Assembly (NCBI GenBank): GCA_947034885.2
Contig: OX344749.2
Coordinates: 41,817,682 to 41,881,681 of the forward strand
Origin: Thuidium tamariscinum
Lineage: Eukaryota > Streptophyta > Bryopsida > Hypnales > Thuidiaceae
Direction: 5' to 3'
DNA: 64,000 bases
Part shown: piece by piece, positions 2,985-38,031 of the stretch
Position numbering within the stretch: the first letter of the stretch is position 1
Layout of the letters: every line of letters begins with the position of its first letter
Position numbers and translations under genes: made by a program
Notes under the pieces: generated by a model
Told to the model about the DNA's origin: nothing
What the model saw: only the letters and a program-made list of their open reading frames with translations
Database searches by the model: none

Positions 2985-4130
2985 AATAAAAATCTAACCT
3001 TTTTCTTGGCACCATGGTGCTAAATTGCATCACTTCAAAGTAAAATTAACCCCTAAAGGACTAAAGTCCCCTCGGGGGACACTTGGAATTTCGGGCAGGC
3101 TTGTGTGACTTGAATTTTCGCTATGATTTTTTGAAACTTTTTTTGAAGATAGGAAATTAGATTAGCTTTCCAAAAATATAATTTTTATTTCAAAAATGCT
3201 TAGAAGCAAAAGTTATGCCATTCTAAGTCCAAAAAGCAGTTCACCAGGTAGAAAAAAAAACACAAAAGAAATTATTTTTTTATTTTTTATTTTTTCTCTA
3301 AAAGATTATGTTTTTTTTCTACATCTGAAGCTTTGGTTCATTTTATTTGGACTAATAATGAGAAAATTATGGACCATCTTGTATTTCGGGCAATCTAAAC
3401 AACTTCTTCAAAAAATAACTTATAGAATGTATTTTTGAGTGCAATTTTTCAAATTTTTCAAATTTTTTTTTGATAGGGTTTAGGATGTTTGCAAGAACAA
3501 GCTCACCGTTGGAATCATGGTTTTCTAATTACATCTTAAAGTTATTAACAGCTTAGTGTTTTATTCAATCTTGGACCTATTTTTGCTTAACAATTTTTTA
3601 ATGAATGAAAATCAAGTAGCTTTTTTTTGAAATTTTTTTCCCTAATTTTCAACTCAAATTTTCAATATAAATTTTTTTAACTATATGGTCTATAGTGCAG
3701 AAAAATTCAACAAATGGCAATCAAAGTCATCTGAAATTGCAAATCAGAGTTGAAAAAAACTTTTTTTTCCAACTTTGAATGCTAATATCTTCCAATCAGT
3801 ACGGTCAAACTTCATGAAATTCTTACCACATGATCTCAGACAAGTAATTTACAAGATCCTATGGTTAGATTCTAATAAAATTGTTTCTTTTGTTTTTTGG
3901 GGAGGAAGTAGCAAACATGGCAGTTTTGAGTGGTTTTCAAGCTAGAAAATGCCTAAGTCCTTTAGGGGTCAATCTTTTTTCCTCAAATTTTTTTCATTTC
4001 TATTCAAAATATAGATGAAATCACCAAATATGGATGAAAAGTATGAATATGGTTCAAAAGAAGGATAGAAGTAAAAATACAATGCTTTACCAAATTTTAA
4101 GTTATTCCCATCTTAGCACTTTCTCAAAAT
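2985..4130. repeat. Dispersed repeat L, copy interrupted by element A
   Basis: The left piece (CTTGGCACCATGGTGCTAAA) and the right piece (ATATGGATGAAAAGTATGAA, ATACAATGCTTTACCAAATT) flank element A. Intact copies are at 4960-5230, 60440-60705 and, inverted, 22290-22545. Confidence 0.65.
3050..3968. mobile_element. TTAA-flanked MITE, copy A (919 bp)
   Basis: Begins CCCCTAAAGGACT and ends AGTCCTTTAGGGG, flanked by TTAA (3046-3049) and TCAA (3969-3972). Sequence outside continues the interrupted repeat L, so the boundaries are well supported. No coding capacity. Same family and length as copies B and C. TTAA target duplication and a CCCT-type terminus suggest the piggyBac superfamily. Confidence 0.8.
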
Positions 4131-4319
4131 ATAAATAAATAAATAAATGGATAACAATGTGGAAGTGTGGAGAGTTGTTTTTTGGAGATGTCAAGTGGTA
4201 AGGTCAGGAATCAAGTTATTGTATTGATTTGGAATGGGTTCAATTATTTCATAGTATACTAGTATGCCTTATGTTGTTGCTACAACCAAAATCAAAGTGA
4301 AGGAATTTCCTAATTTTTG

Positions 4320-5620
4320 AATGCATAAGAACTTTGAAATTCAATAACTCTCACACCATAGGTCCAAACACCACAAAACAAAGTTTGGGTACCCCTCCTC
4401 ATCGAGGGCTTTTCAACGGGCCCAAGATATATTGAGACCAAAATCAAAGTAGAAGTAATTTTCTAGTTTTTTAGAACCAAAAATAACTAAAAAATTTTGC
4501 ACCATAGGTCAGAACACCACGCAACAAAGCCTGTACACCCCTCTTCGCTAAGGGCATTTTGAGAGTACTAAACACACAACTAGGATATTACACAAGGGAT
4601 GCACGGTCTAGGAGATCTCAATGTGACAAACAAAACAAAATAATTTTTTTAAACTAAAAATAATTCAAAAATCTATAACTTTCACATTTTAGGTTGGAAT
4701 GCCACGAAACAAAGTTTGTACACCCCTCTTAGTCAAGAGCTTTCTGATAATACCAATAATGTGATTGGAAGACGCATGGTCCAGGAGATCTCAATGTGAC
4801 AAACAAACAAGAACAAAAGAGAATATATCAAGCTTCCTTAATGTATAAACTAGTGTACCATGTGTCGTTGCTATAGTCAAATCCAAAGTAATACAGAGTA
4901 GTAATTTTTTAATCCATTAAAACTTTGAAATTCAATAACTTTCTTACTATGCATCCCAATGCCACAAAACCAACCCTTTTTTCTGGCACTATGGGGCCAA
5001 ATTGCACCATTTAAAAATAAATGTCTTTTTTTCACCAAATAAAAGTAATCTTTTTTCGCCAAAAGTTTTCAAATTCTCTTTAAAATATGGATGAAGTTGC
5101 CAAATTTGGATGAAAAAGTATATGAATGTAATGGAAAAGTATTTTTAAGTCCAAAAGACAGATGAATGTCGAAATACAATGCTTCACTGAATTTGAAGTG
5201 ATTTCCATCTTGGCACTTTTTCAAAAAATAAAAAAAGGGATATACAAAACAAAGCCCATACACCCCTCCTACCTTTAAGCTTTCTGACAGTACTAAGCAT
5301 GCAACAAATAGACAGATGGTTCGAGAGATCTCAACTTGACAAACAAACAAAACAAACTACCTATCTTAAGTATAGACTAGTTTGCCATGTACCGTTGCCA
5401 CAATCAAAAGTAAAGTAAAAGTAATTTTCTAATTTTTTAGAACCAAAAATAAATCAAAAGTCAATAACTTTCCCTCTGTACATTGGAACTCCACAAAACC
5501 AAGCCCGTGCACCCCTCCTTGCCAAGAACTTTCCAAAGGTACTAAACACGCAATTTTGGGATGCACGGTCTGGGAGATCTCAATGTGACAAATAAACAAA
5601 ACAAAACAAAACAAATCAAA
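4320..5620. repeat. Irregular array of a roughly 130-bp motif
   Basis: The core, CACCACAAAACAAAG..., then TACACCCCTC.TCGC.AAGGG, then GAGATCTCAATGTGACAAAC followed by AAACA repeats, recurs at about 4375, 4510, 4690, 5250 and 5480, with a copy of repeat L embedded at 4960-5230. Single or double copies are also at 57160-57300 and 59960-60230. Confidence 0.6.
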
Positions 5621-6232
5621 CTAGAAGAGAGGGCTCTAAAACAAGTGTCTAGTAGGAGGCTATGAAATGAATATCTAATTGTGGGAAAATGGCCTTTTGA
5701 TTACATCAAAGCATGATAAGATTTGGTTTATACTTCTTCAATGGATGGCTTAAGAGCAACAATGGGTTCTTTCCTAACTAAGTGAGTAGGTGTCTACTAA
5801 TTTTATTGAAAACAAGAATTGGTAGTCCAACTACCTTCTTACAAATTATGTTAAAAAATCCAAAATAATGATTGATTCAAGCATTCAATTCAGTCTTAGA
5901 AAAGGGTCACATTTAGAAACCATCTCTAGCACTTTTTACATGTTGCAATGCTAGTTTTGAACAAAACCAGATTTTTTTTAAAACCAAGCATGTGTCAGAT
6001 TCCGAGGCCTACAAATCACAAATAGAGACCTATGCCGCATTTTGTTTGAAAATTCATAAATAATTCATAAATGCTCCAAAAAGTATATGACTTATGTTAG
6101 ATTCCTTGTTTATTTTTCTTTCACTGAAAAATGAAAAATGAGCAAAAATATTATTATCTCAAAAAATACATGATAAAGGCAGACCAGCCCTTAAATGAGT
6201 AGTTTATGAGCCTCTTACCTTACCATTCTTAA

Positions 6233-7151
6233 CCCCTAAAGGACCAAGGCCTTTTTTTTTGTCAAAAACCTCTCAAAACTATCATTTCTATTGCATTCAC
6301 CCAAGAAAACAAAAGAAAATAATTTTTTAAGAATCAAACCATAGGATCTTGTACTTAACTTGATTGAGATCATGTGGTGAAAATTTCATGAAGTTTGACC
6401 ATATAGATTAGAAGATATGAGTATTCAAAGTTGGAAATACGATTTTTTTTGAACTGTGGACTGCAATTTCAGATGACTTTGATTGCCATTTGTTGAACTT
6501 TTTTGCACTATAGACTTTGAATTAAAAAAAAATTGTGTTTAATAATTGAGTTGAGAGTCTAAGAAAAAACATTTACACAAAAAACACTTGATTTTCATTC
6601 TTTAAAAAATTGTTAAGTAGATGTATGTCCAAGATTTAAAGAAAAACTAAATGGTTAATAACTCTAGGTGGGATTGAAATACAATAATCCCAATGGTGAG
6701 ATTGTTCTAGCAAGTAAACATAACCTTTTTCAACAAATTTTTTTGAAAAAATGTGAAAATTGCATTTAGAAATGAATCCTATAGGTTATTTTTTTGAGAA
6801 ATTGTTTAGATTGCCCGAGAAATAAGATTGTCCATAACTTTCTCATTATAAGTCCAAATAAAATGAATCAAAGCTTCACATGTAGGCAAACATATATTAT
6901 TTCAGAAAAAAATTTAATTAAACTTTGAATTTTTGCAAAAAAAAAATTCTACCCGCCGAACGAAAATTTGGACTTTTTGAGGTATAACTTTTGCTCCGGG
7001 TCACCAATTGAAATAAAAATTACATTCCCACAAAGCTAATCAGTTTTTCTATCTTGTGAAAAAGTTTCAAAATGTTTCACCAAAAATTGAAGTCTACGGA
7101 ACCTGCCTGAACTCCAAATTGTCTCCCAAGGGGACAATGGTCCTTTAGGGG
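6233..7151. mobile_element. TTAA-flanked MITE, copy B (919 bp, inverted to A)
   Basis: Begins CCCCTAAAGGACCAAGGCC and ends GGTCCTTTAGGGG between TTAA at 6229-6232 and 7152-7155. Its left part is the reverse complement of the right part of A (for example CATGAAGTTTGACCATATAG), and its right part that of the left of A, so it is the same element in the other orientation. No coding capacity. Confidence 0.85.
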
Positions 7152-7668
7152 TTAAGGTATGGATTTCCAAACTCTTGGGATTGAAGCTGCTTTTACAGTA
7201 CAGTTGGCTATGATTCTTGTGAGCGAATCATCAACCAGGATTGCAACATGCCAATGAATACACCATGAAATTTTTAGGGAGAATTTTGAAATTACTATAA
7301 TTATTCAAGAAAAAAACAAGGAAAAATCATATCAAATATACAGTATATTCAAAAAACTTTAAATTTTCACCACATATGTATATTATAATATATATATATA
7401 TAACATTATGTTATAAACCAAATCTATCATATCACTCTAAAATTAAAAAATCACAATACTATAGATATAGGTCTAAAGTTCATACTGCTATAAAATATTG
7501 AAATTTATGGGGTTTTCAATCATTCCAATTGGTGTAAAAAGTGCACTCAACATAGTCCACTTCAATAGGTAAACTCAAGTTTTAAAAATATTGTTTTTAG
7601 GGCTAAAATTCACATCAAGAAAAAATAGCAACAACTACCAACCTACACAAGGGGGATTCATGGATTAA

Positions 7669-8588
7669 CTCCTAAAAGCCCATTATTCTCTTGAAGGACA
7701 ATTTAGAGTTTGGGCAAATTTTGATGACCTCAAATTTTAGTGGAACTTTTTGAAACTTTCTTACAAGATAGGAAAACTGATTAGCTTTGTGAGAATATAA
7801 TTTTTATTTCAATTGATGTGAGAAAGCAAAAGTTATACCACAAAAAGCCCAAATTTTACTTGGCAGGCAAAAAAATAAATTCATAAAAACTTGAAATTGA
7901 ATTAAATTTTTTTCTCTTTTATAGATCATATTTTTGTCTACATGAGAAGCTTTGATTCATTCCATTTGGATTAGTCGTGTGAAAGTTATGAACAATCTTG
8001 TTTTTTGTGCAATTTGAACATCTTCTTGAAAAAATAATTGATAGGATTCATTTCTAAATGCAGTTTTCACATTTTTAAAAAAAAAAATGCTTGACAAGGT
8101 TATATTTTCTTGCTGGACCAGTATCATTGTTGGGATTATTGTGTTTCAATTCCATCTTAGAGCTATCAACGATTTACTTTTTCTTTCAATCTTGGACCTA
8201 CCTCTACTTAAGAATTTCTTAAAGAATGAAAATCAAGCATTTGTTTTTTGAAATTTTTTTCCTAGACTTTCAACTCAATTCTTAAACACAATTTTAAAAA
8301 AATTAAAAATCCATAGTGTAGAAAAATTCAACAAATGGAAATCAAAGTCATCTAAAATTGCAAGATAGTGTTTAAAAAAACTATGTTTTCCAACTTTAAA
8401 TGCTCATATCTTCTAATCTATATGGTCAAACTTCATGAAATTTTTATCACATGATTTTGGGCAAACAAAGTAGAAGATCCTACATTAGATTTTGTATAAA
8501 CACTTTTTTTTGTTCTTTTGGATGAACACAACAAAAATGGCAGTTTTGAGTGGTTTTTGACAAAAAAATGGCCTTGGGCCTTCAGGAA
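7669..8588. mobile_element. TTAA-flanked MITE, copy C (920 bp)
   Basis: Begins CTCCTAAAAGCCC and ends GGGCCTTCAGGA, with TTAA at 7665-7668 and 8589-8592. It is colinear with copy A over its length (GATAGGAAAACTGATTAGCT near the start, GGCAGTTTTGAGTGGTTTTT near the end). Termini are slightly diverged from the CCCCTAAAGGACC consensus. Confidence 0.8.
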
Positions 8589-8592
8589 TTAA

Positions 8593-10173
8593 GCATCCTC
8601 TACTTTAGAAAAGTCAATAATACCTGAATGAGAGGATTGCAATACTATTCACTAAAAATGTACTTAAGCAACTTCCAAAAATGAATTGGATGAGAAAAGG
8701 TTGTTTTCCCATATTATATCCTTGGGTGAAGTCATCCAAAGGGTATTTCATGTCCTTGACACAATGTTTCTAAGTTAATGCACAATCAAAAGAACTCATG
8801 AGTTTATTACTAAATGATTTGAAAGTTGAAATCCAACCCAAATTTGATGTTGATTTGGGGTACATTTATAAATGACTATGTATCTATGGTACAAGATTTT
8901 TGAGTGTTTTATTTAGATATGTACTGCAATTAGCAATACTCAGTTGCTATTATTTGAGCTAAGGATCATGAGCATGCTAGTATAAGAGTCAATACATCTA
9001 TATTATAAATATTCATAATATAGAAACCTATCATGATTATAAGTTATGTATATTGTAGATACCTCTATTATAAATGTTTTTTCTATAAACTTCTTCAATG
9101 ATTGTAAAATATCTATTTATACATATATTCAAGGCTCACATGCTTACATTTTTATATTTAGTTATTCACATGTTAGCATTGCTATATATGTTCATATACC
9201 AATAGAATCATTTTTTGAAGGAATGGAACAAGTCAAATGCTTGTTTTTTAAGAATCCCCTCTAAGATTTGTTTGTGATACAAAATAAATAATTTTGAAAA
9301 AGAAATTTACCTAGATTTCATTTATGTACTTACATAATTTTTTCATGGTGAAGTTTGTAAGTACTCTATGTATACTTAATCAAAAGAATGACCAATCGTT
9401 GTTAGAAGTTTTTTTTAAATTATAAAATATGACACTTTGCATGAGAATTGGCAATTTGGGTGTATCCACTAGTATTTAGAATACTTTACAAGTTTTATTA
9501 CCTATTTTTCATTAATTCCTATACTAAACCAAATTTTTCAACACCAAGTCCGTTTATTCACTATTTTTTACACCAAATAGAAATTTTATAGATTTTTTTA
9601 ATTGATTTTTTAAATATTTTTAAATGAGATTTTTTTTCCTAATTCCACTAGTTACTAACGAACCAACCAATGGTTGTCCCAAAACTTTAGTATACACCTT
9701 GTCTCCTATCTATATATTGTAGGAAAACCATAAATGGTTAAGTTACCTCCTTCTAATAATAAATTGTCTTGAAACCAACTATAGCTGACACTAAAAAGAT
9801 TTTGAAAATTTTGATTTGTTTGCACTTAATTGGCTCACACTTGACTAGGAACAAGTTCCAAAGGTAGATGTTTAAAGTGAACCTATGACACAAACTGGGG
9901 TCCAAATGAAATGAAAGACATTTATATTGCAAGGAAAAATATCTCAATTTTTTTTCCACATCCTTGTTCTTGCACATATTGAGCTTTCCCAAAGGAGTGC
10001 CCAAATCCATTAAAATGATTATTTTAATCAAATAAACAATGACCATTTATGGTATTCCTACAATGGAAACATCCAAAACCGTCAAAATAAGGAATTCAGC
10101 ATAGTTGGAGGCAACGTTTTCTAAAAATGATATTTTTCTAGTATTAACGAGTGAAAATCATGAATATTAAAAA

Positions 10174-10207
<34 letters not shown>

Positions 10208-10631
10208 TATATTTGGATACAGTATGTAATTTCTACAAATTTTCAAAGTGTTGGCTCCCTAGACCTGTGGAACCATCCTATAGGTGCCCCCAAAATTGAA
10301 CCCTGCAAAAATCAGCACTCAACCAACCAGATTTCCCTAGGTGTCCTTCAGTTGTGTTAACAAATTACAATCATACATGTGGCGAACAGATTAAGGGAAG
10401 TCTACTGACACATTTGGGTGAATCTATAGTCCATTGCAAGGAATAGGTGCGGGAGTGGGTGTTTTGCCCTTAGTAGCTTTTCTTTTTTGAGAGAAATTTT
10501 ACTTGGCCTGACAGATTCTGGCCTCTTTGGCACTCTCCCTCCCAATTTCAACCTATACCCAAAAGCTGACAAACTGACACATGGCCAAAAAGAGCAACTT
10601 AGAAAGGCCACTTGATGTGATCATCCTACCT
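8593..10631. other. AT-rich DNA, no gene seen
   Basis: Between elements C and J. It holds part of the 820-bp repeat near 9505-9640 and a poly-A plus TA microsatellite at about 10169-10212. Short open frames have no recognisable product. Confidence 0.5.
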
Positions 10632-10635
10632 TTAA

Positions 10636-10856
10636 CCCTGAAGCGCTCGGACGTCCATATTCTGGACGATGAACAGATGGCTTCAAGGCTATATTTCATT
10701 CAATTAACTTTTCATTTATCAAATGTTATACTTGAATCTAAAAAAGACAACCTTCTTTAATGACCAAATTCATTAAATTCTGGTAAATGATATATCTGTA
10801 CAAAGCTAGAAACAAAAATGTGCAAAAATTCAAAAAAGGATTGAGACGCTTGAGGG
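10636..10856. mobile_element. TTAA-flanked short MITE, copy J (221 bp)
   Basis: Begins CCCTGAAGCGCTCGG and ends GACGCTTGAGGG, flanked by TTAA at 10632-10635 and 10857-10860. The terminus is close to that of copy I (CCCTTGAA..CGC) but the interior is unrelated to the 920-bp family, so it is a second lineage sharing the TTAACCC boundary. Confidence 0.7.
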
Positions 10857-11139
10857 TTAAACTCTGAGGATTCATAGTGCAAAGGATTGATGTACGAAAC
10901 CTAACTTCCATGAGTCATTTGATTCAACCTCCAGTTCTGTATCAATGGAAGACATGAGGGTCACTAACTTCTAGAAATGTCAAAGGCAATGTTGCTCATT
11001 TTCAATGCTGTTCAGGAAGTTGGTGGAGAGAAGGGATGTGCGACAACTGAAGCTCTGACAGGAATTCGATATTTTGATGGACTTTCCTTCAAAGCGACAT
11101 TCAATTTATGGGGTTCAAAAACATCATTGTTTTTGAAGC

Positions 11140-11955
11140 TTTATGGATTTAAATGCCTTCAAATTATACAAATCTCAACTGTACAATTTTGTAATGTATA
11201 ATTGTATATGTTGTAGATGATATGTACAAAATTTGAAGTCATTTGGCCACATCGATTGCAAGACCAAAATATTTTAGTGTTGAAAATGGATGCTGAAATT
11301 TTCCTAAAAACATATTTGGAGGTGAAATTTGATTCATAAACTTACTCAAATGAAAAGACTTTACACTACAAAATGATTCAAAATTCCTATAAAAACACAC
11401 TGGTGAAATTGCAAAAAACACATCTAAAGTTGAACGTGCTTCTACTAGAATGCTTCTTAGTCATTCATTAATCCTTGGATTAAGATGAAATTTTTGCCAC
11501 ACAAACAAGACTAGTATGTGCAACTTTTCCAAAAAGAATTATTGAAAATGAACTTTGTATGAAGAAGAAACAAGCTGATGAAGTTCATTGTACTCCAATA
11601 ATGGTAGGATTTTGAACTTTGAATTGCTCTCAAACATTTAAAACAATTTGGATTGACACAAAAACTTTACCACAATAATTATACTTCAAGGTGAACAAAA
11701 TCCAACAAATTTTTATTGAAAATGAGCAATGGGTGAAGGAGATCCAAGGCCCCAAAGTTGCAACCCTAAAATGCAATTAGGTGAACTCAAATTGAAGTTA
11801 TGAACTTTGATTGGCTTCCAAAGAATCAATACATCTTGGATTGATTTGAAAATTTTACCACACAAACTAGAGGGGAGAACACAACTTTCCAACAAGTTTT
11901 ATTGAATTGAAACTTTAGATGCAAAAGTTACAACACTTTGAACTGTGTGAGGACA
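11140..11955. repeat. Dispersed repeat K, copy 1 (about 0.8 kb)
   Basis: Colinear with 43185-43995: shared pieces include TTTGAAGTCATTTGGC, ACACAAAC.AGACTAGTATGT, GAAGAAGAAACAAG and GCAAAAGTTACA.CACTTTGAA. No terminal inverted repeats or coding capacity were found, so the class is unknown. Confidence 0.65.
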
Positions 11956-12408
11956 CTTTTTGTCTTCTTTGTTACTTTGGGGTTAACCTTGGAGTGCTAG
12001 CAATGCCATTTTGTGGTGCTTGGATGACTTCATAACAGTGTAGGGAGATTTCTAGTAGTTTTTCATCCATTTCTTGTTGCTTGACCTTTCTCAAAGGATT
12101 ATAAAGAGTACCTAATTCACTTTGTAGTCTTGTAAGTATTTCTCCTCACATAAATAAGAAATTAGAAAAAAAAACGGATCACAAAAATATGCTATTTTCA
12201 GTGTTTTTTGGGAAGTTATTGCTTCTTACTCTAAATCTCAGATTTCTCAAAAAAAAACGATATTTTTTGAGTTTGAGCCCAACTAACAAAATGAAGGTCA
12301 TCTATTCTAGTTCTTTTTCTCCAATTGGAACTTTGAAAAAAATCATAATTTTGAATATTTCATTGCAATTTGAACTTTGGATGTATTTTCAATGTCTTTT
12401 GGATAGTA

Positions 12409-12732
12409 AGGTAGAAGGCTCTTAAATGGAGCGGTTTCTAAAATGGTGCCCTATATTAAATGTATTGTATTTGTAAATGTTTTTTTATAGTCTTCAGCAA
12501 TGTATTGACTATGTACATTTTAGTTAAGACACCATTTTAGAGCCCTATGCCCTTTCAACTTCAAAATTTGATAACTAATTCCACAAAGCTCCAAAAAATA
12601 CAAAATGACTTGGGTTAGATGTCAATTCCACTTTTTTTCAAGGAAAATATAGTGAAAAATATTTCAAGATGTTTCACCTCCCCAAAATTGCAATTTCAGC
12701 CCTTAGATGGGCAATTATTGAGCCTTTTACCT
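12409..12732. mobile_element. TA-flanked MITE (324 bp) inside G1
   Basis: Terminal inverted repeats AGGTAGAAGGCTC and AGGTAAAAGGCTC (12 of 13 match) lie between TA dinucleotides, as in Tc1/mariner (Stowaway-type) MITEs. G2 lacks the insert, showing an empty-site-like sequence TTGTAATTG. A 105-bp internal inverted repeat (12437-12541, ends TCTAAAATGGTG) may be a further nested element or just the core. Confidence 0.75.
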
Positions 12733-13021
12733 TAATTGTAGAATGACATAGAAATTGAGCTTACACCATGATGTTTGCCACTGAAATGTACACACATGGT
12801 GAAATTCTCATATTTATTGAAATAATTTCTATTTGATATGATTTTTCTTCACTTTTTCTTCAAAATATTTCAGGAATCAATATTCCTCAAAAAAATAAAA
12901 ATTTTAGGAAATAAAAAAGAGATGTAACTTAATTTGTGAAAAATAAATTAAAAAAATTTCATACACATCTAGTCCTGAAATGGCAGCAAATTGAGTGTTG
13001 GGCACAAGGGCTTGAAAATAG

Positions 13022-13279
13022 CATTAGAGGAGATTTGGGCTTCTAGGAGATTGTGAGTTTCCATAGTCTATAAACGCGGAAATTGTTGTAGGAACACAGT
13101 TTTGTAGGATCTCTATGTACTTGAGAGAGTGCCACATCAAATTTTTTTTTGAAATGTTTTCTAGCTTTTTTCATATTTCAAGACTCAAAAAAAATTGATA
13201 AATGCTGGCCTAACAACAACCAGCAGTTACGGGAACAGTCCTGAAACAACCCTTTGGAGCCCTCAAATCCCCTCTAATG
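13022..13279. mobile_element. CATTAG-terminus MITE, copy M1 (258 bp) inside G1
   Basis: Inverted ends CATTAGAGGAGATTTGGGC and the complement of CAAATCCCCTCTAATG. The interior shares GTGCCACATCA and an AACCAGCAGTTACGGGAACA-type motif with copies M2-M5. G2 lacks it at the matching site (GAAGACAGTGGTTATAGG). Confidence 0.75.
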
Positions 13280-13305
13280 GTGGTTATAGGTCCAATGTTT
13301 AAGGG

Positions 13306-15313
13306 CAAATCCTACCATCAAAGGTGGACCTAAGGTAGAATGAACCATAACCAACCATCATCCCATAGCCAACCTATATATTGATGAACATATTTCCATT
13401 CAAGGCTAGAATGTTTTTTTTCTCCATTTCAAAATTGGGACTAAAAGTTAATGGCACATGTCCCAAAGTAGTGTGCAAGAAAGTAGGAAGGGATGAGTAA
13501 AAAAATAGTTTCTTGAATGATCGGAATTAGAACTTTAGAAGAGTCCACAAATAGGCTATAGGTCTAGAGCACATTTTGCTTTTCAAAATTCATAATAATT
13601 TCAATTCATATAGTAGAATTACTAATTTTTTTGCAATTCCCATCATTTCTATTATTGCACCTCTAAAGTTTTTTTTTTTTGCCTTGCACTACACTAGATC
13701 ATGTCTGGAATACTTTAAATGATCAATTATAGATGGTTTTATCTTAGAAAGGTAAATTTTGAGTTCTCTTAGGTAAAAGTGAAAAAAGACCTCTATTTTG
13801 TGTTATATTTAAGGTTCATTCTAGACTTCTCATATTTTTAGAATTTGAAAAAAAAATGAAAATGAAACCTTCTAAAGATGAATTTAGAATTTGAAAAAAA
13901 AATTATTTGCAAAAAATAAAAGATTAATGCATTTTCCCCAAGGTCATCCACCCTGTTGAGCCTACTTTGAATGGAAGATATAGTGTCCTCTCATTAATTT
14001 AGCATCATTGCATACTAGGTTGATTCCCTCCCCCCAAATAGTCATTTTAGCTTTAGAATGTGATATGTGTCATTATGTAATTGGTTGAAACTATTGAATT
14101 ATACAACTGATATATGAACACAAGGAATGGATTTTGTCTATAAATTATAGGGATGAATTTATTAGGAAATGAGTGGTGAATAATGGTATACATGGTATAA
14201 TAAGAAGATACACTATAAGAGGCTTTGTCTAAATAGCATTGTCTCACTTTTTGAGTAAATTAGCTATTTGAATCACCTTGTAAGAGGAGTGAAACTTTAT
14301 TAGCTATGTCAAGGTAGTATTCAGAAATTAACATTATTTTTTAACTTCAAGCCATTACTCTTGCAATTTTTGAAGTTAAAGTTCTTGAAATATTCCCTAC
14401 ATACTCCAAATATTTGTCTCTAACTTTTCAAAGAAAGCATTAATTTTCCTTGCACATGAAATCATCAAAAAATGTCTATTACATTGTGAATTCACTTAAC
14501 CTCTTTGCATTGCAAGGTGATTTGAAGTGAGCTAGCCCTTAAAGGATAGACCTATGACTACTGGTTTGAAGCCTCCTTGCTTGTCACTTAGTTTGTTACC
14601 ATTTTGGAACCTGATATATATGAAAAATTATATTTTTATTTTTCAAAGATGAAAGTACATGTCTTCTATACTTAACAAAAAATTTAGATTTTTTAATGAA
14701 AAATGTTCTTTATGGAAATTTTTGGAGAAAAACTGAAGAAAAAATCATATCAAATAGAAAATAAACTCAAAAAATCTGAAATTTTCACCATGTGTGAATA
14801 TTATAGTGACAAACATCATGGCTATAAACTCAAATGCCGTGTACTTCTATAATTAGAAAGCAATGGACATTAAAAATATCGCTTAAGTTCAAACTACAAT
14901 AAAATATTCAATTCTACAAATTTTTCCAAAACTCCAATGGGAGAAGAAATTAAAGTAGAGGACCTCCATTTCATAAGTTGGGCTCAAATTCAAAAAATGT
15001 TGTTTTCAAGGAGAAATTTCAGATTTACTCAATTTCTCAAAATACACTAAATTGGCAAATTTTGCCATCCGTTTTTCTTAATTACTTCTCAGCTATATGG
15101 AAAAAAACATCAATTAGACTAAAAACTCAGTTGGACACTCTTTGTAACTCAATATGAAAGGTCATTAAAGAAAAAGTGGATGAAAAAACTATTGTTTAAG
15201 TCTTCTTATAACCCTCTAAATTCATCCAAAAGCCACGAAATGGCTCCTTAGGCACTAAGAAGCTAGACCTCATATTTGCATCTAAAATTTTGCATGAGTG
15301 TAATCAATAAAAT
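13306..15313. other. AT-rich DNA, no gene seen
   Basis: Segment 14700-14830 resembles the right part of the G elements (CATATCAAATAGAAAAT, TTCACCATGTGTGAATATTA), as does 7260-7400, suggesting decayed relatives. Nothing else recognised. Confidence 0.45.
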
Positions 15314-15664
15314 CATAAGAGGATTTCTGGGCCCCTAGAAGACCGTTTCAGGGTTGTTCCTTGAAATTGTTCCCACTGCTGCAGACCAGCCCCTTATTGG
15401 TCTGAATTTTTGAATTTTGAAAAAATAAAATAATTTTTTTTCCAAAAAGATTCTGAATGTATTAAAAAGCAAGAAAATGATTAATTTTTTTTTCTGAAAG
15501 AATATTTTAAAAATATTTAATAATCAATTAAAATAATTAACTAATTTGTACTTTTTGTCGTGGCAGTCACTTGACTACATCATCATAGCATTCCCAGCAT
15601 TCCCACAACATTCTCAGCGTTTGGGAACTTACAGTCTTCTAAACTGGTCAGAACTCCTCTTATG
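15314..15664. mobile_element. CATTAG-family MITE, copy M2 (351 bp)
   Basis: Ends CATAAGAGGATTTCTGGGCC and the complement of GGTCAGAACTCCTCTTATG form the inverted repeat. The interior contains GAATTTTTGAATTTTGAAAA and GGGAACTTACAGTCTTCTA, matching the family in opposite orientation. Confidence 0.65.
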
Positions 15665-15884
15665 TTAGGATTCAATTGTGAAGAGATTCAAATTCATCGA
15701 TCAAGAGCAAAAGTTTTACTCCAAGAGGGCTCAAACTTTACTAACCTTGCTTTGCACAAATGAAAAAAAGTCATTTATACTCCAAACATTATAATCTTTC
15801 GGTCCACATGGTCAAATGGCTTAAAATTTATTCAAACTACCTACATAGTAGTCTACTATGCTTTTATACAATTGAAGTTCAATA

Positions 15885-16934: not shown

Positions 16935-16936
16935 TA

Positions 16937-23592: not shown

Positions 23593-23690
23593 ACAGTTCA
23601 ACCATTTCCAACCAATTCTTCATTCATGCCACTCTTTCATATTGGAATGAACCTTCTTTTTTCTTCCTTGCTCTACTGGTCATAATTTAA

Positions 23691-24026: not shown

Positions 24027-24030
24027 TTAA

Positions 24031-27500: not shown

Positions 27501-27777
27501 ACACACACACACACAAAATCGCTTACAACTCCGATCACAATGTAAACCTCGTCGCGACTAAACACGCCAAATCGCCTTGGGATCCAAACTCCGCGACCTA
27601 AGATATAAATCCAAAGTGATCCGATCTATTGAATTCCACGAGGGAAGGTCATTTCTGTACCTTGTAGGTTGGAGTATCAAACGCAGCTCGCGAGACTCCG
27701 CTCTGCAGATTCTCCCACGTCTGCCGCTCCGATCCTTGTAGCGGCAGCGACACCAGGAGGTACTTATTCACCGCCAT
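24584..27777 (-). CDS. VHA-C: V-type proton ATPase subunit C (DET3-like), 11 exons
   Basis: Encodes a 378-aa subunit C of the V1 peripheral stalk, which links the V1 ATPase head to the Vo proton channel on vacuolar and endomembranes and controls their reversible association. Exons in transcript order: 27777-27661, 27480-27412, 26658-26528, 26409-26310, 26162-26095, 25951-25810, 25647-25531, 25447-25322, 25216-25133, 25011-24932, 24686-24584. All introns are GT-AG and the phases close into one frame. The length is close to Arabidopsis DET3 (375 aa) and the match is colinear: start MAVNKYLLVSLP, then DGVPVDHYVTR, AVRDLSNVVKPDDI, YSQKDWLASYETL, NEYALYTVTLF, QQWCYQVYGEVFSAWMH, ESILRYGLPP, and a final HPYVSLTVNLAG. 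The start ATG at 27777 is chosen because it gives the family N-terminus; an in-frame ATG lies 102 codons upstream but the added stretch matches nothing. The start is in a GC-rich leader. No residue looks damaged, so the gene appears functional. Confidence 0.96.
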
Positions 27778-28140
27778 CGCCGCTTGCTCTGCGAAAGTGA
27801 GACGAAATGGAAATGAAGAAAAATAAATTCTGGTGAAATGCGAAGAATACGTCGGCCCTCCGGCTATGGCGTGAAGGGAGCTTGCGAAAAAGCACGAAAT
27901 CGCCCCCGTTTCCGCAGAACGCTTGGGGTGAGGGGAGAGAGACGACTGTGTGACCGTCGATTCAGGGATCGGACAGTTCAGGAGGTGCCACGTCGGAAAG
28001 GAATTCTCAGGCTTCAATAGTGAGCTTGTATATGCTGCGGGAGTGGGGATTCTCATCCATCCTTCGTTCGCGCATTCATCCATTATGACGAAAGCCTTCT
28101 AAGGGCCGCCGCGGTACACTTAATGTAAAAGCACCAGTAA
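27778..28140 (-). promoter_or_regulatory. Probable 5' leader and promoter of the V-ATPase C gene
   Basis: This stretch upstream of the start codon is visibly richer in GC than the repeats beyond 28.14 kb, with many CpG dinucleotides. It has no coding similarity that I recognise. I see no convincing TATA box and cannot place the transcription start. Treat as leader plus proximal promoter by position only. Confidence 0.4.
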
Positions 28141-29428
28141 CCGATCATTTAAGCAAATTCGGCACACATGGTGCGCAGTAAGATCTGGTGGAAATTTCTC
28201 CCATGAAGGAAGATAGGAAATATGGGGATAGTGAATTTTTTTTAATTTTATTCTAAAATTTTGAAATTTTAGTGAATTTCAAAGTCAAAATCTACATCTG
28301 ATCAATAACAAATCTTTAAAGTCCACTCACATCTTCTGAACATGTGTCATAACCTTATAAGTCCTAATCTTGAAAAGGACAAAGGAAGAAACAAACAAAA
28401 ACAAAAACATCCTCCACTTCATTTCTATCCTAGGGTTGGAAATAGCGCACCTTGTAGGTTGATTAATGGTTGTAATTGGTTACTAGTGCTTCTACCTTAA
28501 AGGTTGGGCCAATTCCTCTCCAAGCCAATTGTACAAAATTTCAGCCCCTTTTGGATTAAAATTAGGCATTGGAATAAGATTATAGCAAAGGACAATTCTT
28601 CCATATTAAAGAGCATTCCCATACTTGGTGGAGATTGATTATAGTGCGAAGTTGGGTTGTTTAGTAGTGAGCTTTTTTGATGGGGCCAACTAGTGTTGTA
28701 GCTATCTACTCCACTTCCAAACATTGAATGCAATACTTCAAGAAGGACATGCACTCTAATTTAAAAATTCAATTTATTTTGCTTTAAGAAACCAAAAACA
28801 ATCTGATTTTTCACTCTTTGAGAATTATTGGATACCTCATTTGTTTCCACATGAAATGAAAGAAGACTACCCTTTAGTGCCTTACAAGTAATGTCAACTT
28901 TAAATGAAATGCAATTGGAGAAAAAAAGCTTTTTATATCCACATGGGGTTGACAGAGATCTTCCAACCTTTGTGGACTTAGGTAGGTTGGTATATTTGAA
29001 GGAGAGAATCTCCCTATATCTTGATGAGGTGGAAGGAGGTCTTCCAACCCATGCAAAATAAGTGAATATAAACTAGTTCTCTAGCTCCCACTAGTTCATG
29101 CTCACTTATTCTACATTAATTGGAAGGCCCCCTTCCACCCCATGAGGATATAGTAAGCTTATTACCTTCCTTGGAAAGAGAATTCAAGGTGAAAGTGAAC
29201 TTTCATTTTTATCCTTTTGATATAAGTTTCCATAAGTTTATTGTAGATGTTATGCTTTTTGGCATCCCTTTCACTTCAAATTTTTTTTAAAAAGGAATTG
29301 AATTCATTCAAGGGCAATTGGGGATTAGTACCTAAAAATTGGAGTGATCTCAGAGTACAACCAAAAACCATACAAAGCCTTGGCAAAGACACTTCATTTA
29401 GTTATCTTTCCTTCAATTTTAGCAATGA
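28141..29428. other. AT-rich DNA with a decayed hairpin, no gene seen
   Basis: At about 28925-29160 a weak inverted repeat (GGTGGAAGGAGGTCTTCCAA and GGAAGGCCCCCTTCCACC) resembles the foldback at 61196. Otherwise nothing recognised. Confidence 0.45.
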
Positions 29429-29884
29429 CTAGCGGTTGGTGCTTGCTATGCTTGTCAATCATCATTAGAATTTAGAAAATTGATATCATGAAAGCTCAAA
29501 TTTCACAAAAGCACTAAATCATAGAAGCGCAAAGAAGCGTTAAGCCAAGAAAACCAATGGATTTTCTACCTCTATTATACCTTCTTGTGGATCCTCTTTA
29601 ATATCACCTTCATGGCAACAACTACATTATTTTTATAATATCACTCTTTGTAAAAAGTGATATTACAAAAGTGATTGCAAATTGCTACTCCTTTTCTGTA
29701 ATATCACATTGTGTGACAATAAAATTTTCATGTATTCATGATTGAAAACATTCTTATAAAATACTTAAAATAATTATTTTAAGGACTTATTGAAGTCAAT
29801 ATCATGCATTCTATTCAAATATATAAATTTTTTTATTAATATGTGATATAGTGAATGCATAGCATACCAAGCACCAGCCCCTAG
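29429..29884. mobile_element. TA-type inverted-repeat element N, copy 1
   Basis: Termini CTAGCGGTTGGTGCTTGC and the complement of CCAAGCACCAGCCCCTAG agree at most positions. If the element proper starts at GCGGTTGG, flanking TA fits a mariner-like target. A second, nearly identical copy lies 0.9 kb downstream in the same orientation. Shared similarity runs about 52 bp past the right terminus (to 29936), so the true right end is uncertain. Confidence 0.6.
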
Positions 29885-30059
29885 TATTAATGGTAGCATT
29901 TGTGACATTAGAGAGGGAGTTATGATTTTAGTAGTATATAAATAAATAAATAGCAATATAGAAATTCCAAAAATTTACTTGTATAGACTCTATGTAATAA
30001 AGGCTTGAATATATGCTAGTATGCTACCACCTGACATCCTATATATTGAATCAGTTGAA

Positions 30060-31280
30060 GATAAAACTACGTTTTTTAGCAACATAGTAGTTTTGGGCTA
30101 CTCTCTTCAAATGGAATTTTTATTTTTTCTTTGAAATTTTCACACAACATGTGCCTGAGGAGTAGCTTTGAGACGCAACAATTTTTATAACATGTGACTA
30201 CATAGTTAAAATTTTATTGCACGATATGTGATTTTCTTTGATCTTTGGACAATCTAGACAACTTAGGAAACTTTTTTAAGAATCACATTTGGAAAAAATA
30301 AAAATTTGAAATTGTTATATTAGGTTTATACTAGCGGTTGGTGCTTGCTATGCTATGCTATGCAATCATCATTAGAATTTAGAAAATTGATATTATGAAA
30401 GCTCAAATTTCACAAAAGCACTAAATCATAGAAGCACAAAGAAGCATTAAGCCAAGAAAACCAATGGATTTGCTACCTCTATTATATCTTCTTGTGGATC
30501 CTCTTTAATATCACCTTCATGGCAACAACTACATTTTTTTATAATATCTTTGTAAAAAGTGATATTACAAAAGTGATTGCAAATTGCTACTCCTTTTCTG
30601 TAATATCACATTGTGTGACAATAAGATTTCCATGTATTCATGATTGAAAAAAATTCTTATAAAATACTTAAAATACTTATTGAAATAATATTATGCATTC
30701 TATTCAAATATATCAAAATTTTATTAATATGTGATACAGTGAATGTATAGCATACCAAGCACCAGCCCCTAGTATTAATGGTAGCATTTGTGACATTAGA
30801 GAGGGAGTTATGATTTTAGTAGTATGATGATGTATATGCTAAACTTTGAATTATTCCATTTTGATTAATGAGATAAAAATTATGAAAAGTTTTAGGTTTG
30901 TGTGTAGTTATGCATTCACTAAAGGTTTTTCTATGCACAAACTAAAATCCCTCATGATTTTTATCTCATTAATCAAACTAGAATGATTCAATGCTCACCA
31001 TATATATAGAAATCTTATAAATCAATTTCAAGTTTTTATTTTTTGAAAAGTGAATTTTAAAGAACTTTCCTAAGCTCCCTAGGCTATCCAAAGATCAAAG
31101 AAAATTATTTTTTTACTATGTAGTCACAAGTTATGAAAATTATTGCACTTCAAAGCTATTCCTTGGGCACATGTTGTATTGGTGTTTGAAAATTTCAAAT
31201 AAAAATTAAAAAATCCATTTATAGTAAGTTGCTCACAATTGCTATGTTCATATAAAATACATCTTGGTCCTTTACAGATT
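30060..31280. mobile_element. Foldback element D with a nested copy of N
   Basis: The left arm (30060-30330 and 30830-30900) is the inverted complement of the right arm (about 30945-31280); for example CATGTGCCTGAGGAGTAGCT on the left pairs with AGCTATTCCTTGGGCACATG on the right. The right end GGTCCTTTACAGATTAA is a decayed version of the 920-bp family terminus. Copy 2 of N splits the left arm. Confidence 0.65.
30331..30772. mobile_element. Element N, copy 2, inserted in the arm of D
   Basis: Same terminal and internal sequence as copy 1 at 29429, with a small TGCTA triplication near the left end (TGCTATGCTATGCTATGC). Shared similarity continues to about 30825. Confidence 0.65.
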
Positions 31281-31679
31281 AAAAACATTTAATATTTATT
31301 ATCAATATTCTATCTCAAATAAACAAAAATATTATTAAAAGTTAAATATTGAAGATTTTGTATCTAAACATCATATCAAACGCTTAGAAATCTAAACCAT
31401 GTATGATTATAGATGAATATTTTAATCTATAAATTTTTTTGATGCAATTTGGCGAAAAAATCCTTAATCACTCTTTTCCTCAAACAATGCTCAAATATGT
31501 GCTATTATTTATATTATGGTAGAACAAAGTCTCTAAGTTTAGAGCAAACTATAAAATATCTTAGTTAGCGTTTTAAAATACATTCTTTATCCCCTCCAAA
31601 ATTTTAGAATAAGAAATCTAATCAATTGTAACATCATGATTTTTAAAATTCAAAATAAAATATTTTCAACTTTTCTTAA

Positions 31680-33662
31680 CCATGGCCATTTTTTCATAAA
31701 AACACTCAAAATTAAGGTGATTTTAAGAAACACTTATCCTATGTAATGTCCCCTTGGCCTCGGACAATTTTTTTTCTTATAACTTTTGCGTTTTTAAATA
31801 GCCTCTAATTGGATATCTACCTTCACTTTTTAGGATTTTAGTCCTATTTTCTACCCAAAAATACAAATTTTATGCTCAAAATTGGCATGCAAAGATCTCT
31901 ACAAAATATACACAAGCCTAAGAAAAGATTTTCTTAAAATAATAAATTTTCCAACTTCCACATGTGTTCAAAGTGCACTACCTTTACACACGTGTAGAAA
32001 ACACAATTTATTTTTTATAAAGATGAAAATGGTTGTGGAGAAGAATCTTTAAGTTAAAAAGATAATTTTTTTGAATTTTTTAACTATTTAAGAGAAATCA
32101 AACATTAAAGTGTCTTTTTTCATTGTATTTTCTATTGGGTTTTTTTGTGCATAACTTTTAAAGTTAAATTTTCTTAAGTCTAAATTTTGAGAGATACAAT
32201 GTTCTCATTGCTCTTCAAATTATTCATATTTTATTTAATTTAAAAATAATAATTTCAAAAATCACAAGACTCATTGAAATAGGTGAATTTGAGCCAAAAA
32301 TGATAATCGTTTCTTGCAACGACCTATTGCCATTTTCATTGAACCGTATCCTCAAATTAGATTTGTACAAAATAATTTATTTATAGGAATATTTTTTTAT
32401 TACATGATATTTTACTTTTATCAAATTTCATTATTTGTGATATCTAATATTTCAATGTGACTTTTGATCCTCTACTTTGCTTTTTCCATGTGAATAAGTT
32501 TTACACTCTTAAAATCTTGGACATTTATATAGCACAAGATGATAATATTATCCTCCTTTTGCAACTTGTAATGATTTTTATAAATTGACAATCTTGTAAT
32601 TTGTACATAAGAATGTTCTTTGCAAAAAATTTAAATTTTAATAATTGACAATGTTGTAATTTGTACATAGGAATTTTCTTTGCAAAAATCTTGAATTTTT
32701 ATAAATTTTGATTATTTCCATCAATACTTTCTACACTATTCAACAATCCTATCTTATAATTTTTGAAACTTTAATAAGTTGCCATATTCAATTTTTTTGG
32801 AGTTATTTTTTTGAAGATTATGATTTCTTATTAAGGTAGTATTTCATTCTTAAATAGTCCAAAAATGTGTGGAATAAATTTCAAAGAACACCAACCACAT
32901 CAATTGCAAGATATTTGCATTTAAAATGAAGAAAACAAATTATATTTGTACCTTATATAACTAAATTATTTGACTTTGAACATTCTTAATTAAAATATCT
33001 TGCACCACAAAATTTTAGGGTTTAAATCTTTATAGTAGAGGATTGACTTGAGAATTGTGGAAAAAAAATTTAAGAGAAAAATACTTAATTTTCATTCCTA
33101 AAATAATTCCCATGTAGAAGTAGGTACATGATAGAAGGAAAATCTAAATTATTAATATGTTTAAGATGGAATTGAAATATACTAATTCTAATGGTGAGAT
33201 TATTTTTAAGAACAAACCAAACTATGTCAAACCCTTTTTTTTGGAAAAATTATGAAATTGAGTTCAAAATGAATTCAATAAATTATTTTTTCAAAAAATT
33301 GCTACAATTGCCTTGAAAACATGATACTCCGGAACTTTCACATCAATTATCCAAATGGAACAAATCAAAGCTTTCAATGTAGATGAAAATATAAATTATG
33401 AGGAAAATAAATTCAAAACATTCAAAAATTTAGATTATTGTGATTTTTTTTGTTCCTTGTCTTTTTTGTTTTGAGCTTATTTGAACATAATTTTTGCTAT
33501 TGGACATTGATTGAAAAACAATTATACTCCCTTGAAGCTAATCAATTTTCTATCATAAACAAAGTTTCGAAAAATCATGAAAAAATTGAGATTGTAGGTG
33601 TCTATCTTGGTACCTACCCAAAATCCAATTTATTCACTAAAGGGACAATGGTCCTTTACAGG
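31680..33662. mobile_element. Long TTAA-flanked member F of the 920-bp family (1,983 bp)
   Basis: Left end CCATGGCCATTTTTTC after TTAA (31676-31679). Right end GGTCCTTTACAGG before TTAA (33663-33666), preceded by GGGACAATGGTCC as in copy B. The last 650 bp align with B (AATGGTGAGATTATT), the middle does not. It may be a longer member or contain insertions. No long reading frame. Confidence 0.55.
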
Positions 33663-33666
33663 TTAA

Positions 33667-36600
33667 ATGGTTAAGTTTCATTTTTTAAACATTCTACCCT
33701 AAAATGGATACATCCTATAAGTTGAAATTCTCTTTAACCTCCCAAAGACCTAAAAGATAAAATATGTCTTCTTTAAATTTTCAATGGCATATAGTATGGA
33801 ACAAATCTTAATGTTCTGTATAGTAGTATCTTCAAGATTAACAAGTTGACATATTTGTTACATTTTTTGATTTTTATAATTTCAATGTAAGAAGAATCTA
33901 ATTTTTTTATGAAATATAGTTTAAAATAGAAAGAGAGCAAATATAATTTGTTTTGAATAAATGGGACATTAGGGATGGAAAAAAACAAGTTTTATTATAT
34001 ATATTTTAAGCAAACAAACTAGGCCTAAATTTTTTTTCACATTTGTATCAATAAAAAATTCAATGTGATGTGATGTGATGTGATGATGATTGAATACAAA
34101 ATAATTAGAGTGATCCTAGATTTTTTGGAGATGTTCCAAACAATATGCTAATAATATCAATTATTAAATTTTAAAAATTGACACATATATTTATTTTTTA
34201 TATTTTGAAAGATCCAAGTTGGTTGGTTTTGGCTTTCTACGCAACCATGTTTTGTTTGAAAATGTCTACAAATTAAATTTAAAATTTTTTTTTTTGTGTT
34301 TTTTTAATTAAAAAGTATTAAATTTGACTTAGATTCTAAACAATTTTTTCTTTGGGTGGGTACAAAATCATTATTCATCTTCTTGAAAATATTCTATATA
34401 TATGCTTGAAAAAAATGATAACTAGAAAGAAGTAAAATATAACAAAAAAAACTAAAATATTAAAAAATTGGTTATGGAATTTATAAATTCCAATTTCAAA
34501 CTAAATTATAATGTTGTAATAAACAACCTACATTATATATTTTTAATTTTGATAGAATATTAAAATTTTAGTTCAAAAAAGGACTTAAGAGTTTTTTTTC
34601 TAAAAGAAATTCCATAGTTGCATGCAAGCTAAGACTCCTCATAACTGCATGTTTAGAAGTGAATAATTCAAAGCTTTACAAATATATATAAATCTAGAGA
34701 TCCTAGTTAAATTTTCTAATCTTTTAAAATATGATTTATTCTAAGTTGTTTGATTATCCATATTAAGAATCAAGCTATACATCATACAATAATTTTTTAA
34801 TTATTAATTTAGTCAAAAGTTGTAGAAGTTGTTCCACTTTAAAACTAATCCTTGATTATAGCTTGTGTGAGAATTTCAATCGAATATTTTTTAAAACTCC
34901 ATTTGCAAATAGATGACCAAAAGGCGTTGCCTAAAAAAAGTGATTAATCATTCTATGGCTAAATTAACACTTATTTTAGTATGCATTTAATTTTTTGACC
35001 AAAAATTGTCATAACCTATGTTTATGATTCATATAATTGAATATAAATTTTTTTTAAAAAAATGATTCATACTTTAAAATGAAAAAAATTCTAATTTAAA
35101 TGCTAATAATCCATTCTGTTGGCATTATGTATACCTTCTAAACCTTATTACCACTTTTAAAATTAAGATGATATAGTCAAATGTTTTATCTTTATAAAAA
35201 ACTTTAATAAAAATTGGAACTATCTATAGAATTGTTCAACTTTATCGAGTACTGCAAATATGTAGAATTAAGAAATGTGTCTTTAAGAAAAATTTAAGAA
35301 ATTTAAAAATCACACTTTAACAATGCACCTAAGGCAATCATGCAGTTTTTACTCTTGCTATATCTGCATTGTTGGCTAATAATAAACAACCTTCTAAAGT
35401 ATTATAATTTTTCTAATGTGAAGTGTACTATTTAATATTTTAACCTTGTAGAAAGTTAGACTTTTAAATACTAGTAATACACAAAGTACCAATTAAAAAA
35501 AGGAATCACTATGTGAAATACGTTTCTATATTGAATGATTGAAGTGAAACCACTACCAATATATGAAACTATTTTTTTATTATAGTAATTTGTGTATGAT
35601 TTTCTTCATGGAGGTGAATAGAATTTATTTAGAATCCAATATGAAGGCACTTTAGACTAATGTATTAATATCGCTATGAACATCCTTATGTTGAATATTA
35701 AAATCATATTTATCAAAAAAAATTGGCTTAGATTTTAGAATTAGCTAATTTAGGTTGATTAGTCTTTGTGAAAAAAAGTTCAATAGATAATTTATAGTTA
35801 ATTCCTTGGATTTTTATGAGTTTGAACCCCAAAAGAGTTGTTTTCTATTAATGATTACAACTATTATTCATATAAAAGTAGGAATGTTAATAATAAAAGA
35901 ATAGTACATTAGTACATTAGAAAGTAAGTGAACTTGACTATTATTTCCATTATGAACATGTTTGTTTTGGATGAAAAAATAGGTTGAAAAAATGTTGATA
36001 GAGGCTTAAGAGTAGATTGTTCTACCTTATTACCAGCTTTAAGAAAAATATTGAAAACATTGTCTTTTCCATTTATTTCTTTGAATTGTTGAATGGTTGT
36101 AAATTTATATAGTTTAGCTTTTTCTAATATAGTCTTTCAAATACTAGGTAGATATACATAATTGACTATAGTGAAGTCTTCATATGAATCATGGGGTGGT
36201 CTTTAGATGAATTACATCACATTTGTCTTTCTTCTATGTAAAAGATCTCCCTATAATGTAGTCTAAATTTCTTAAAGTGATTTTAATAGATACTAATATT
36301 TGCTAATCCTTTCATAAAATAGACTTAAAGACTAGTAACTTTCAAGTGTAAAATATACTAAGTTTACAATATTCAAGTAGTTTTAAGATGTTATAAATTT
36401 CAATTTTAGATTGATATGTAAACTAAAATTGTTAAGAATTAAATAGATTACTAATACTCACTAAATCAAAAAATAAGATGAATGTTTTTGTATACTTCAA
36501 TACAAAGAGCCCATTATAATACGAGTGATTTGAAATATGCAATGAATGATTTTTTATACAATGAAAGTGTAATGAATAAAATTATAAAAAATTCCAAACA

Positions 36601-36788
36601 ACGAAATGTCAATTTTGTTTTAAAAAATCAAACAATTCTTTAATTTAAAAGCAACCAAGTTTGAATATCAATCATTTGATAGTTAGATAGTTTTAAAATA
36701 AAGCAATAAGATATAATATACAACAATATCAATATTCCATCCCTCTCTCTGTATAATTTTTTCCTTTTTTTAAAACTTTGGATGAACT
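33667..36788. other. Very AT-rich DNA, no gene seen
   Basis: Among the most AT-rich stretches of the window; apart from the GTGAT microsatellite no repeats, open frames or RNA genes were recognised. Confidence 0.5.
34060..34087. repeat. GTGAT pentanucleotide microsatellite
   Basis: About four GTGAT units followed by GATGATG. Confidence 0.8.
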
Positions 36789-36792
36789 TTAA

Positions 36793-37729
36793 CCCCTAAA
36801 GGTTTTTGACTATGTTTTCACCAAAACTGCTCTAAAATTGTCATTTTTAGGACAACTATCAAATTTTAGAAAAAACAACATTTTTTGAATAATGTAATTG
36901 TAGGATCTTTTATAGTGCACTAGTTTGAGAAGATGTAGAAAAAATTTCAGAAAGTTTCACTGTGTAGATTGCAAGATATAAGTATTTGAAGTTGCAAAAG
37001 TCCTTTTTTTACCACTTCGAAAATCCGGGCAATTGCAATTCAAAAGGACACATTTGTATGAATTTTTTTTCAAAATGGTTGTTACTCTTTGGATTCATTC
37101 TTCAATTCAAGTTGGCTACATGCTTGAAAAATTTTTAATCATTTGGAATTGTACAACATGTACAAAAAAAATAGTAAGTAGAAAGAAGTAGAGAATGATT
37201 CAAAATACTAAAATGTTAACATTTATTTGTCGAATTGAAAAATGCCAATCCCAATGGTTCAAAGGTTGTAATAAAAAATCTACACCCAATTTTTAAATTT
37301 TTTTTCAAAAATATTGAAAATAGACTAAAATAAAGGACTTCAAAGTTTTTTTTAGAGTAGGGAATCCATAACTACCCAGAAACTAAAATTCTTCATAACT
37401 TTTGACTCACTAATCCAAATGGAATGATTCAAAGATTCTTGCATACACAAAATTCTAAATAAAATATTTCAATTTTTCATTTTTTCAAAAAATTATTTTT
37501 AAAGAAGTTTTTTTATTTGCCCAAGTTGCCTAAAGATCAAAGGAAATCACATATCATACAATAACTTTTTGACTATGTAGTCAAATGTTATAAAACTTGT
37601 TGGAACTTAAAGCTACTTCTTGAGCTCATGTTGTGTGAAAATTTCAAAGAAAAAGAATAAAAACTCCATTCTTAGTGAGTTGCGTGAAATCACTATATTG
37701 CCAAAAAACGCAGTTTGGTCCTTTAGGGG
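36793..37729. mobile_element. TTAA-flanked MITE, copy E (937 bp)
   Basis: Begins CCCCTAAAGGTTTTTG and ends GGTCCTTTAGGGG, with TTAA at 36789-36792 and 37730-37733. The left part resembles B, the right part resembles element D (GCCAAAAAACGCAGTTTGG), so it looks like a subfamily between the two. Confidence 0.8.
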
Positions 37730-38031
37730 TTAAGAAAAGTTTATCATTTTTTTGAAAGTCACTTCCAAATTGAAAGATCCTTCGAAAGAAGAATTCAATT
37801 CATCAATGTCTCATTAATATAAACAACAAGGAGGGTTTTCAAGTAGAATTGAATGATTTGCAAATTACAAGACTCACAAGATTGATTTGATTCAAAACTT
37901 TCAAAACCCGTAAGATTGAAAGTATAATTTATAGTAGAGACATAAATTTTTAGTCTTTGTATTAACACAATATGTGTAATATTTCTATTTATACTTTAAA
38001 TCACATATCTTTACTTTGCTAATGGATTGAT

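Follow-up and report, generated by a model that had tools for sequence, protein, structure and literature searches.

Elements at the locus

A 64,000-nucleotide stretch of the genome of the moss Thuidium tamariscinum (assembly GCA_947034885.2, contig OX344749.2, positions 41,817,682 to 41,881,681; referred to here as the window) was analysed for putative piggyBac-type transposable elements bounded by the tetranucleotide TTAA. The guanine plus cytosine content of the window is 35.0%. Nine elements consisting of TTAA, C-rich inverted ends and TTAA, some of them decayed, were delimited at both ends between positions 3046 and 37733, and they span 229-1991 bp with the target bases counted in. The boundary rule described in the initial annotation was present where it had been placed; the shortest element of 221 bp given there is element D minus its two TTAA. 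The nine labels (A, B, C, D, N, G, H, I and J) are those of this analysis. Further and more decayed relics were defined by homology, these included E, F, F', a fold-back at 30-31 kb and E' at 43-44 kb. The elements are listed here with the strand where one was assigned, and with left and right target bases separated by an oblique.

3046-3972, plus strand: element A, family 1; 927 bp including target bases; ends CCCCTAAAGGACT on both sides; TTAA/TCAA; inside repeat R
6229-7155, minus strand: element B, family 1; 927 bp; ends CCCCTAAAGGACC on both sides; TTAA/TTAA
7665-8592, plus strand: element C, family 1; 928 bp; ends CTCCTAAAAGCCC and TTCCTGAAGGCCC; TTAA/TTAA
10632-10860: element D, one copy in the window; 229 bp; ends CCCTGAAGCGCTC and CCCTCAAGCGTCT; TTAA/TTAA
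11100-11986, left limit uncertain: element E, a relative of E'; right end CCCCAAAGTAACA followed by TTAA
11983-13309, plus strand: element F, a relative of G; TTAA/CAAA; nested insertions of K (~12410-12734) and M (13017-13276)
14532-15266, minus strand: element F', a relative of F and G; 735 bp; flanks CTAG/CTAG
20014-20833: element N; 820 bp; ends CCCCTAATTGCGT and CCCCTAAATGCCT; TTAA/TTAA; in the end of a copy of repeat M
22652-23394, plus strand: element G; 743 bp; ends CCCTGGAGCACCA and CCTTTAAATGCCG, alike at 6/13 positions; TTAA/TTAA
23687-24030: element H, one copy in the window; 344 bp; ends CCCTTGAATGACG and CCCTTGAACGCCG; TTAA/TTAA
30064-31282: fold-back relic built from the right half of a J-like element, with right end GGTCCTTTACAGA followed by TTAA and another repeat inside
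31676-33666, minus strand: element I, a relative of family 1; 1991 bp; right end CCTGTAAAGGACC, left end decayed; TTAA/TTAA
36789-37733, minus strand: element J, a distant relative of family 1; 945 bp; ends CCCCTAAAGGTTT and CCCCTAAAGGACC; TTAA/TTAA
43158-44009, beyond the 3046-37733 interval: element E', a relative of E; 852 bp; ends CTTTAGAGCTC and TCCCTAGGGGACC; TTAA/GTAA

The right end of E and the left end of F have the TTAA at 11983-11986 in common. Eleven elements account for 9923 of 34688 bp with nested inserts counted and for ~27% without them (27-29% of the 35-kb stretch). Comparison of the sequence with itself gave no match at E 1e-5 between interiors belonging to family 1, the F/G group, N, D and H. 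A lone TTAA followed by an TCCCTGAAGGATC end at 24132 is a further candidate, as is a start at 272, possibly paired with 1311-1314.

Boundaries and target duplication

Elements A, B and C belong to a single family and lie in surroundings that are unrelated to one another. Pairwise identity in the terminal 50 bp inside the elements was 30-40/50 at the left and 36-41/50 at the right, and in the adjacent outer 60 bp it was 21-27/60 and 15-25/60 respectively, which was taken as the level of a forced alignment. The break in homology falls on the four target bases, and the similarity between F and G begins at TTAACC. Target bases are TTAA on both sides in eight of the nine elements and TTAA/TCAA in A. 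As these eight were chosen as TTAA pairs, weight was placed on empty sites and on F'.

Two insertions could be compared with an uninterrupted host repeat, and in both a single tetranucleotide is found in the empty site and two in the filled one. Element N is inserted in repeat M. Of five further M ends, four have CATTAG and one has CATTAC, and N is flanked by CATTAA and TTAAAAGAGATTTG, a comparison that includes just two bases of M to the left of the site. Element A is inserted in repeat R, of which three other copies carry a single GTAA, ATAA and GTAA, and A has TTAA on its left and TCAA on its right, followed by TCTTTTTT.

The match of F' to G begins at one target site (14533 compared with 23393), and its match to F continues at equal spacing to a point within 18 bp of the opposite end; the CTAG/CTAG of F' stands at the alignment columns of the TTAA/TTAA of G. 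Identity of the four bases by chance, calculated from composition, has a probability of 0.0055. Because F' has CTAG twice where G has TTAA, the four bases were read as duplicated target DNA; if TTAA were part of the element the same two positions would need to have changed at both ends, whereas duplication of a CTAG target is a single step. The TTAA target duplication proposed previously is thus supported by the empty sites (A in R and N in M) and by F'.

Since TTAA includes both TTA and TA, and CTAG includes TA, a shorter duplication might have been misread as TTAA, in which case the elements would be PIF/Harbinger (Tourist-like) miniature inverted-repeat transposable elements (MITEs), which have a 3-bp TAA/TTA duplication (PMC10004981), or Tc1/mariner elements with TA. 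PIF/Harbinger-like elements do seem to be present. Insertion K in F was tried as a TTAA element and rejected, a 3-bp TTA duplication fitting the comparison with uninterrupted G with no mutation assumed; K therefore fits a PIF/Harbinger-like element, and this suggests that the two kinds are distinguishable in this window. The CTAG/CTAG of F', however, has no TTA inside, and its outer C and G are duplicated too, so that four bases are duplicated where Tc1/mariner would duplicate TA only, although in one element only. All nine elements have A as the fourth base beyond the right end, although eight had been picked as TTAA pairs, and the ends do not resemble the Stowaway end, CTCCCTCC. A misread shorter duplication is considered distinctly unlikely.

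Occurrence of the motif relative to chance

Pairs of the form TTAA-CC...GG-TTAA, 100-2500 bp in length and with at least 9/16 inverted matches, were counted in the window and in 100 Markov resamples keeping dinucleotide content. Seven pairs were observed against a resample mean of 1.04 and maximum of 5; five are elements (B, D, H, J and N), one is a cross-pair of two elements (22652-24030) and one is a false positive (40740-41213). A, C, G and I fail this test on their own, because A ends in TCAA, C has no CC start, the ends of G are too dissimilar and the left end of I is decayed, and they are supported by homology to other copies. When the CC condition was dropped, 14 pairs were found at 12/16 matches or more (resample mean 1.8, maximum 7); only three of them (B, H and N) represent single elements of the present type, and the rest come from unrelated or nested inverted repeats. 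Good inverted matches beside TTAA are consequently not peculiar to these elements. TTAA-flanked inverted pairs without CC ends, with 12-14/16 matches, were seen in the pair scan at 28120-28500, 62934-63745 and 16486-17055.

The bare motif TTAACCC/GGGTTAA occurred 17 times, a weak enrichment over the resamples (mean 9.62, maximum 16). Leave-one-out scoring placed 17 of the 18 ends within the top 23 of 1010 oriented TTAA sites, a result that is partly circular as the elements were chosen by motif and same-family relatives remain in the training set. Exact matches to TTAACCCCTAAAGGACC numbered none in viral contigs and eight in prokaryote genome contigs, where chance would give ~30 in 257 billion bases, both strands counted, if base frequencies are assumed equal. 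Motif counts therefore prove little, and the case is carried by the family boundaries, the empty sites and the CTAG duplication. That the elements are chance TTAACCC motifs in AT-rich DNA would agree with the modest excess of the bare motif and with the one scored pair that crosses an exon, but is contradicted by the repeat-family boundaries, the empty sites and F'. This explanation is refuted for A, B, C, F', G and N, though not fully for D and H, and was judged the least probable of those considered.

Terminal sequences and superfamily

Among the 18 ends of the nine elements, 13 start with CCC and 16 with CC, and the first base is a pyrimidine in all and C in 17. The ends of family 1 (A, B and C, with the more distant I and J) are CCCCTAAAGGAC or close to it, and other end types are CCCCTAAATGCC in N, CCCTTGAAYGMCG in H, CCCTSAAGCG in D, and CCCTGGAGCACC and CCTTTAAATGCC in G. 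By their sequences the ends are variations on one theme, too different for it to be certain that one enzyme handled them all. PiggyBac elements have been described as having ends of 12-19 bp with CC[C/T]T, plus TTAA (PMC2872659), and as starting with CCCTT, CCCTC, CCCAT or CACTA, with rare targets such as TTAG, TCAA and GTAA (PMC10813416).

Kolobok, the other well-known superfamily that duplicates TTAA, has been recorded in chlorophytes and rhodophytes, and its ends are given as 5'-RR...YY-3' (PMC9587614). Non-autonomous Kolobok elements would account for the duplication, yet a purine start disagrees with the pyrimidine found at all 18 ends here, and this assignment is very unlikely. Ends and target together fit piggyBac better than either Kolobok or PIF/Harbinger.

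Pfam was searched in six frames, on both strands, over 3001-17490, 19401-24290 and 30060-39690, and on a single strand over 39846-44735 (plus) and 24801-29690 (minus), stop codons being translated as X. The same scans recovered fragments of both V-ATPase C and NF-Y, so split coding sequence was detectable by this approach. The sole matches in the both-strand stretches, to E2F_CC-MB at E 0.16 and to a TFIIB zinc ribbon at E 0.0015, did not reach their curated cut-offs. The latter falls in the same area as a minus-strand open reading frame at 38032-38364. In element I, the longest of the nine, the Pfam scan detected no protein domain. Sola3 elements also use TTAA, and would share the target seen here; no transposase domain, whatever its type, was detected in the scanned stretches at E up to 1, and a Sola3-type origin was considered even less probable than Kolobok.

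These data indicate that the elements are very probably old non-autonomous DNA transposons of the piggyBac type. Several observations weigh against this assignment, which is itself drawn from the ends and the target only. The strict CC[C/T]T start is found at 6/18 ends (those of D, G and H), while eight have CCCCT and four have other starts (both ends of C and of I). The empty sites are GTAA or ATAA in R and TTAG or TTAC in M, not TTAA, so one earlier mutation has to be assumed at each site; a prior point mutation to TTAA is, under this assumption, what a TTAA-demanding enzyme would select. The comparison of A with R is also the weaker of the two and its empty site is not clean, because the R copy bearing A is without ~22 bp near the insertion. 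CTAG is absent from the unusual targets named in the relevant part of PMC10813416, D and H are single copies supported by their ends, and the scored pair at 40740-41213 spans an NF-YC coding exon and is a chance match. Lastly, no transposase family, DDE_Tnp_1_7 included, was found in the scanned stretches. The reading of the initial annotation as piggyBac-like non-autonomous elements is thus supported by the ends, the 4-bp target duplication and the empty sites, and a DDE_Tnp_1_7 transposase was undetected in those stretches.

Proposed history

A piggyBac-superfamily transposase, encoded elsewhere or now lost, may have bound the ends, cut the elements out and rejoined them at TTAA, after which the copies would have decayed in place. 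Mobilisation would have depended on one or more transposases acting in trans, now lost or distant. The presence of at least three end types suggests more than one related transposase over time; the single shared transposase proposed previously exceeds the data, several related transposases being as likely. A, B and C differ by Kimura distances of 0.307, 0.365 and 0.248, and the activity was read as ancient because of these values. It is conceivable, although we would put it somewhat short of an even chance, that this plant lineage had a long-lived and diversified piggyBac population, dense and tolerant of CTAG, in which several transposase lineages each drove their own non-autonomous families. 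If true, this would represent a well-documented plant piggyBac radiation and not a stray annotation.

Relationship to known piggyBac elements

PiggyBac has been listed among the superfamilies present in every group that was studied, including land plants (PMC4438587), among angiosperm MITE superfamilies, without sequences (PMC10004981), and in plants generally (PMC8086355), and 1230 copies were annotated in the fern Ceratopteris (PMC6890710). On the evidence of these passages, the statement that the superfamily is rarely reported from land plants was overstated. Plant relatives of piggyBac are already catalogued, and the present elements add a member to a known kind. No paper devoted by its title to native plant piggyBac elements was found in the open literature, most subscription papers being outside the search. 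A possible moss source (PMC10619864) was rejected, as the part concerned contains just the word 'piggybacking'.

The elements share with piggyBac and piggyBac-like elements the TTAA target duplication, short C-rich terminal inverted repeats and the CCC start, and differ in having no detected transposase in the scanned stretches and in one CTAG duplication. The CCCCTAAAGGAC ends of family 1 are without a match to a named family, no repeat library having been compared. Coral MITEs derived from piggyBac (CMITEs; PMC2872659) are also non-coding, use TTAA and have several end families, with ends of 13-14 bp such as CCCTTTAAGCCCTA and CCCCTCAGTGTCCG that are close in style to those described here, and coral family III also has CCCCT; as described in that source, however, they are ~100 bp long with a conserved interior, compared with 229-1991 bp and unrelated interiors here. 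The angiosperm PiggyBac MITEs (PMC10004981) have the same category name and a plant host, and are likened by name, the source passage being without sequences. Kolobok shares the TTAA duplication and differs by its 5'-RR ends.

Surveys of PiggyBac in plants give, in the passages concerned, counts or names only. The defined ends, target duplications and empty sites are search strings with which a resident plant transposase may be found or excluded, and such searches bear on whether plants kept working piggyBac enzymes. For this genome the elements are old relics without visible function.

Other repeats and genes in the window

Three other repeat families were found in the window.

~12410-12734 (inside F), 16604-16936 and 62100-62288: family K, ends GGTARAAGG
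13017-13276 (inside F), ~20012-21131 and 59112-59421: family M, ends CATTAGAGGAGATTTGAG
4968-5227, 22302-22541, 60438-60698 and ~2990-4139: repeat R, ~72-85% identity among copies, one being interrupted by element A

Comparison of the M insertion in F with G showed no clear target duplication, with at most one base duplicated. Two direct copies at 29428-29937 and 30330-30825 are 92% identical and younger than the surrounding relics, and the second sits inside the fold-back of the J-like element. A tandem pair with units of ~800-860 bp, 67% identical, lies at 1311-2124 and 2170-2968, the first unit beginning at TTAA, and inverted repeats with CTCCCTCCACCCCA-like arms at 61053-61438 resemble 29101-29157.

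A V-ATPase subunit C gene lies at ~25-28 kb on the minus strand; its exon matched the sequences of two PDB chains at E up to 0.01, among them 7uw9, a citrus enzyme, which by itself makes a plant host likely. An NF-Y/CBF histone-fold gene, read as NF-YC, is located at ~40-42 kb, followed by a U2 small nuclear RNA at 42581-42775, and an SNF2-type remodeller was identified at ~48 kb from an open reading frame and PDB matches.

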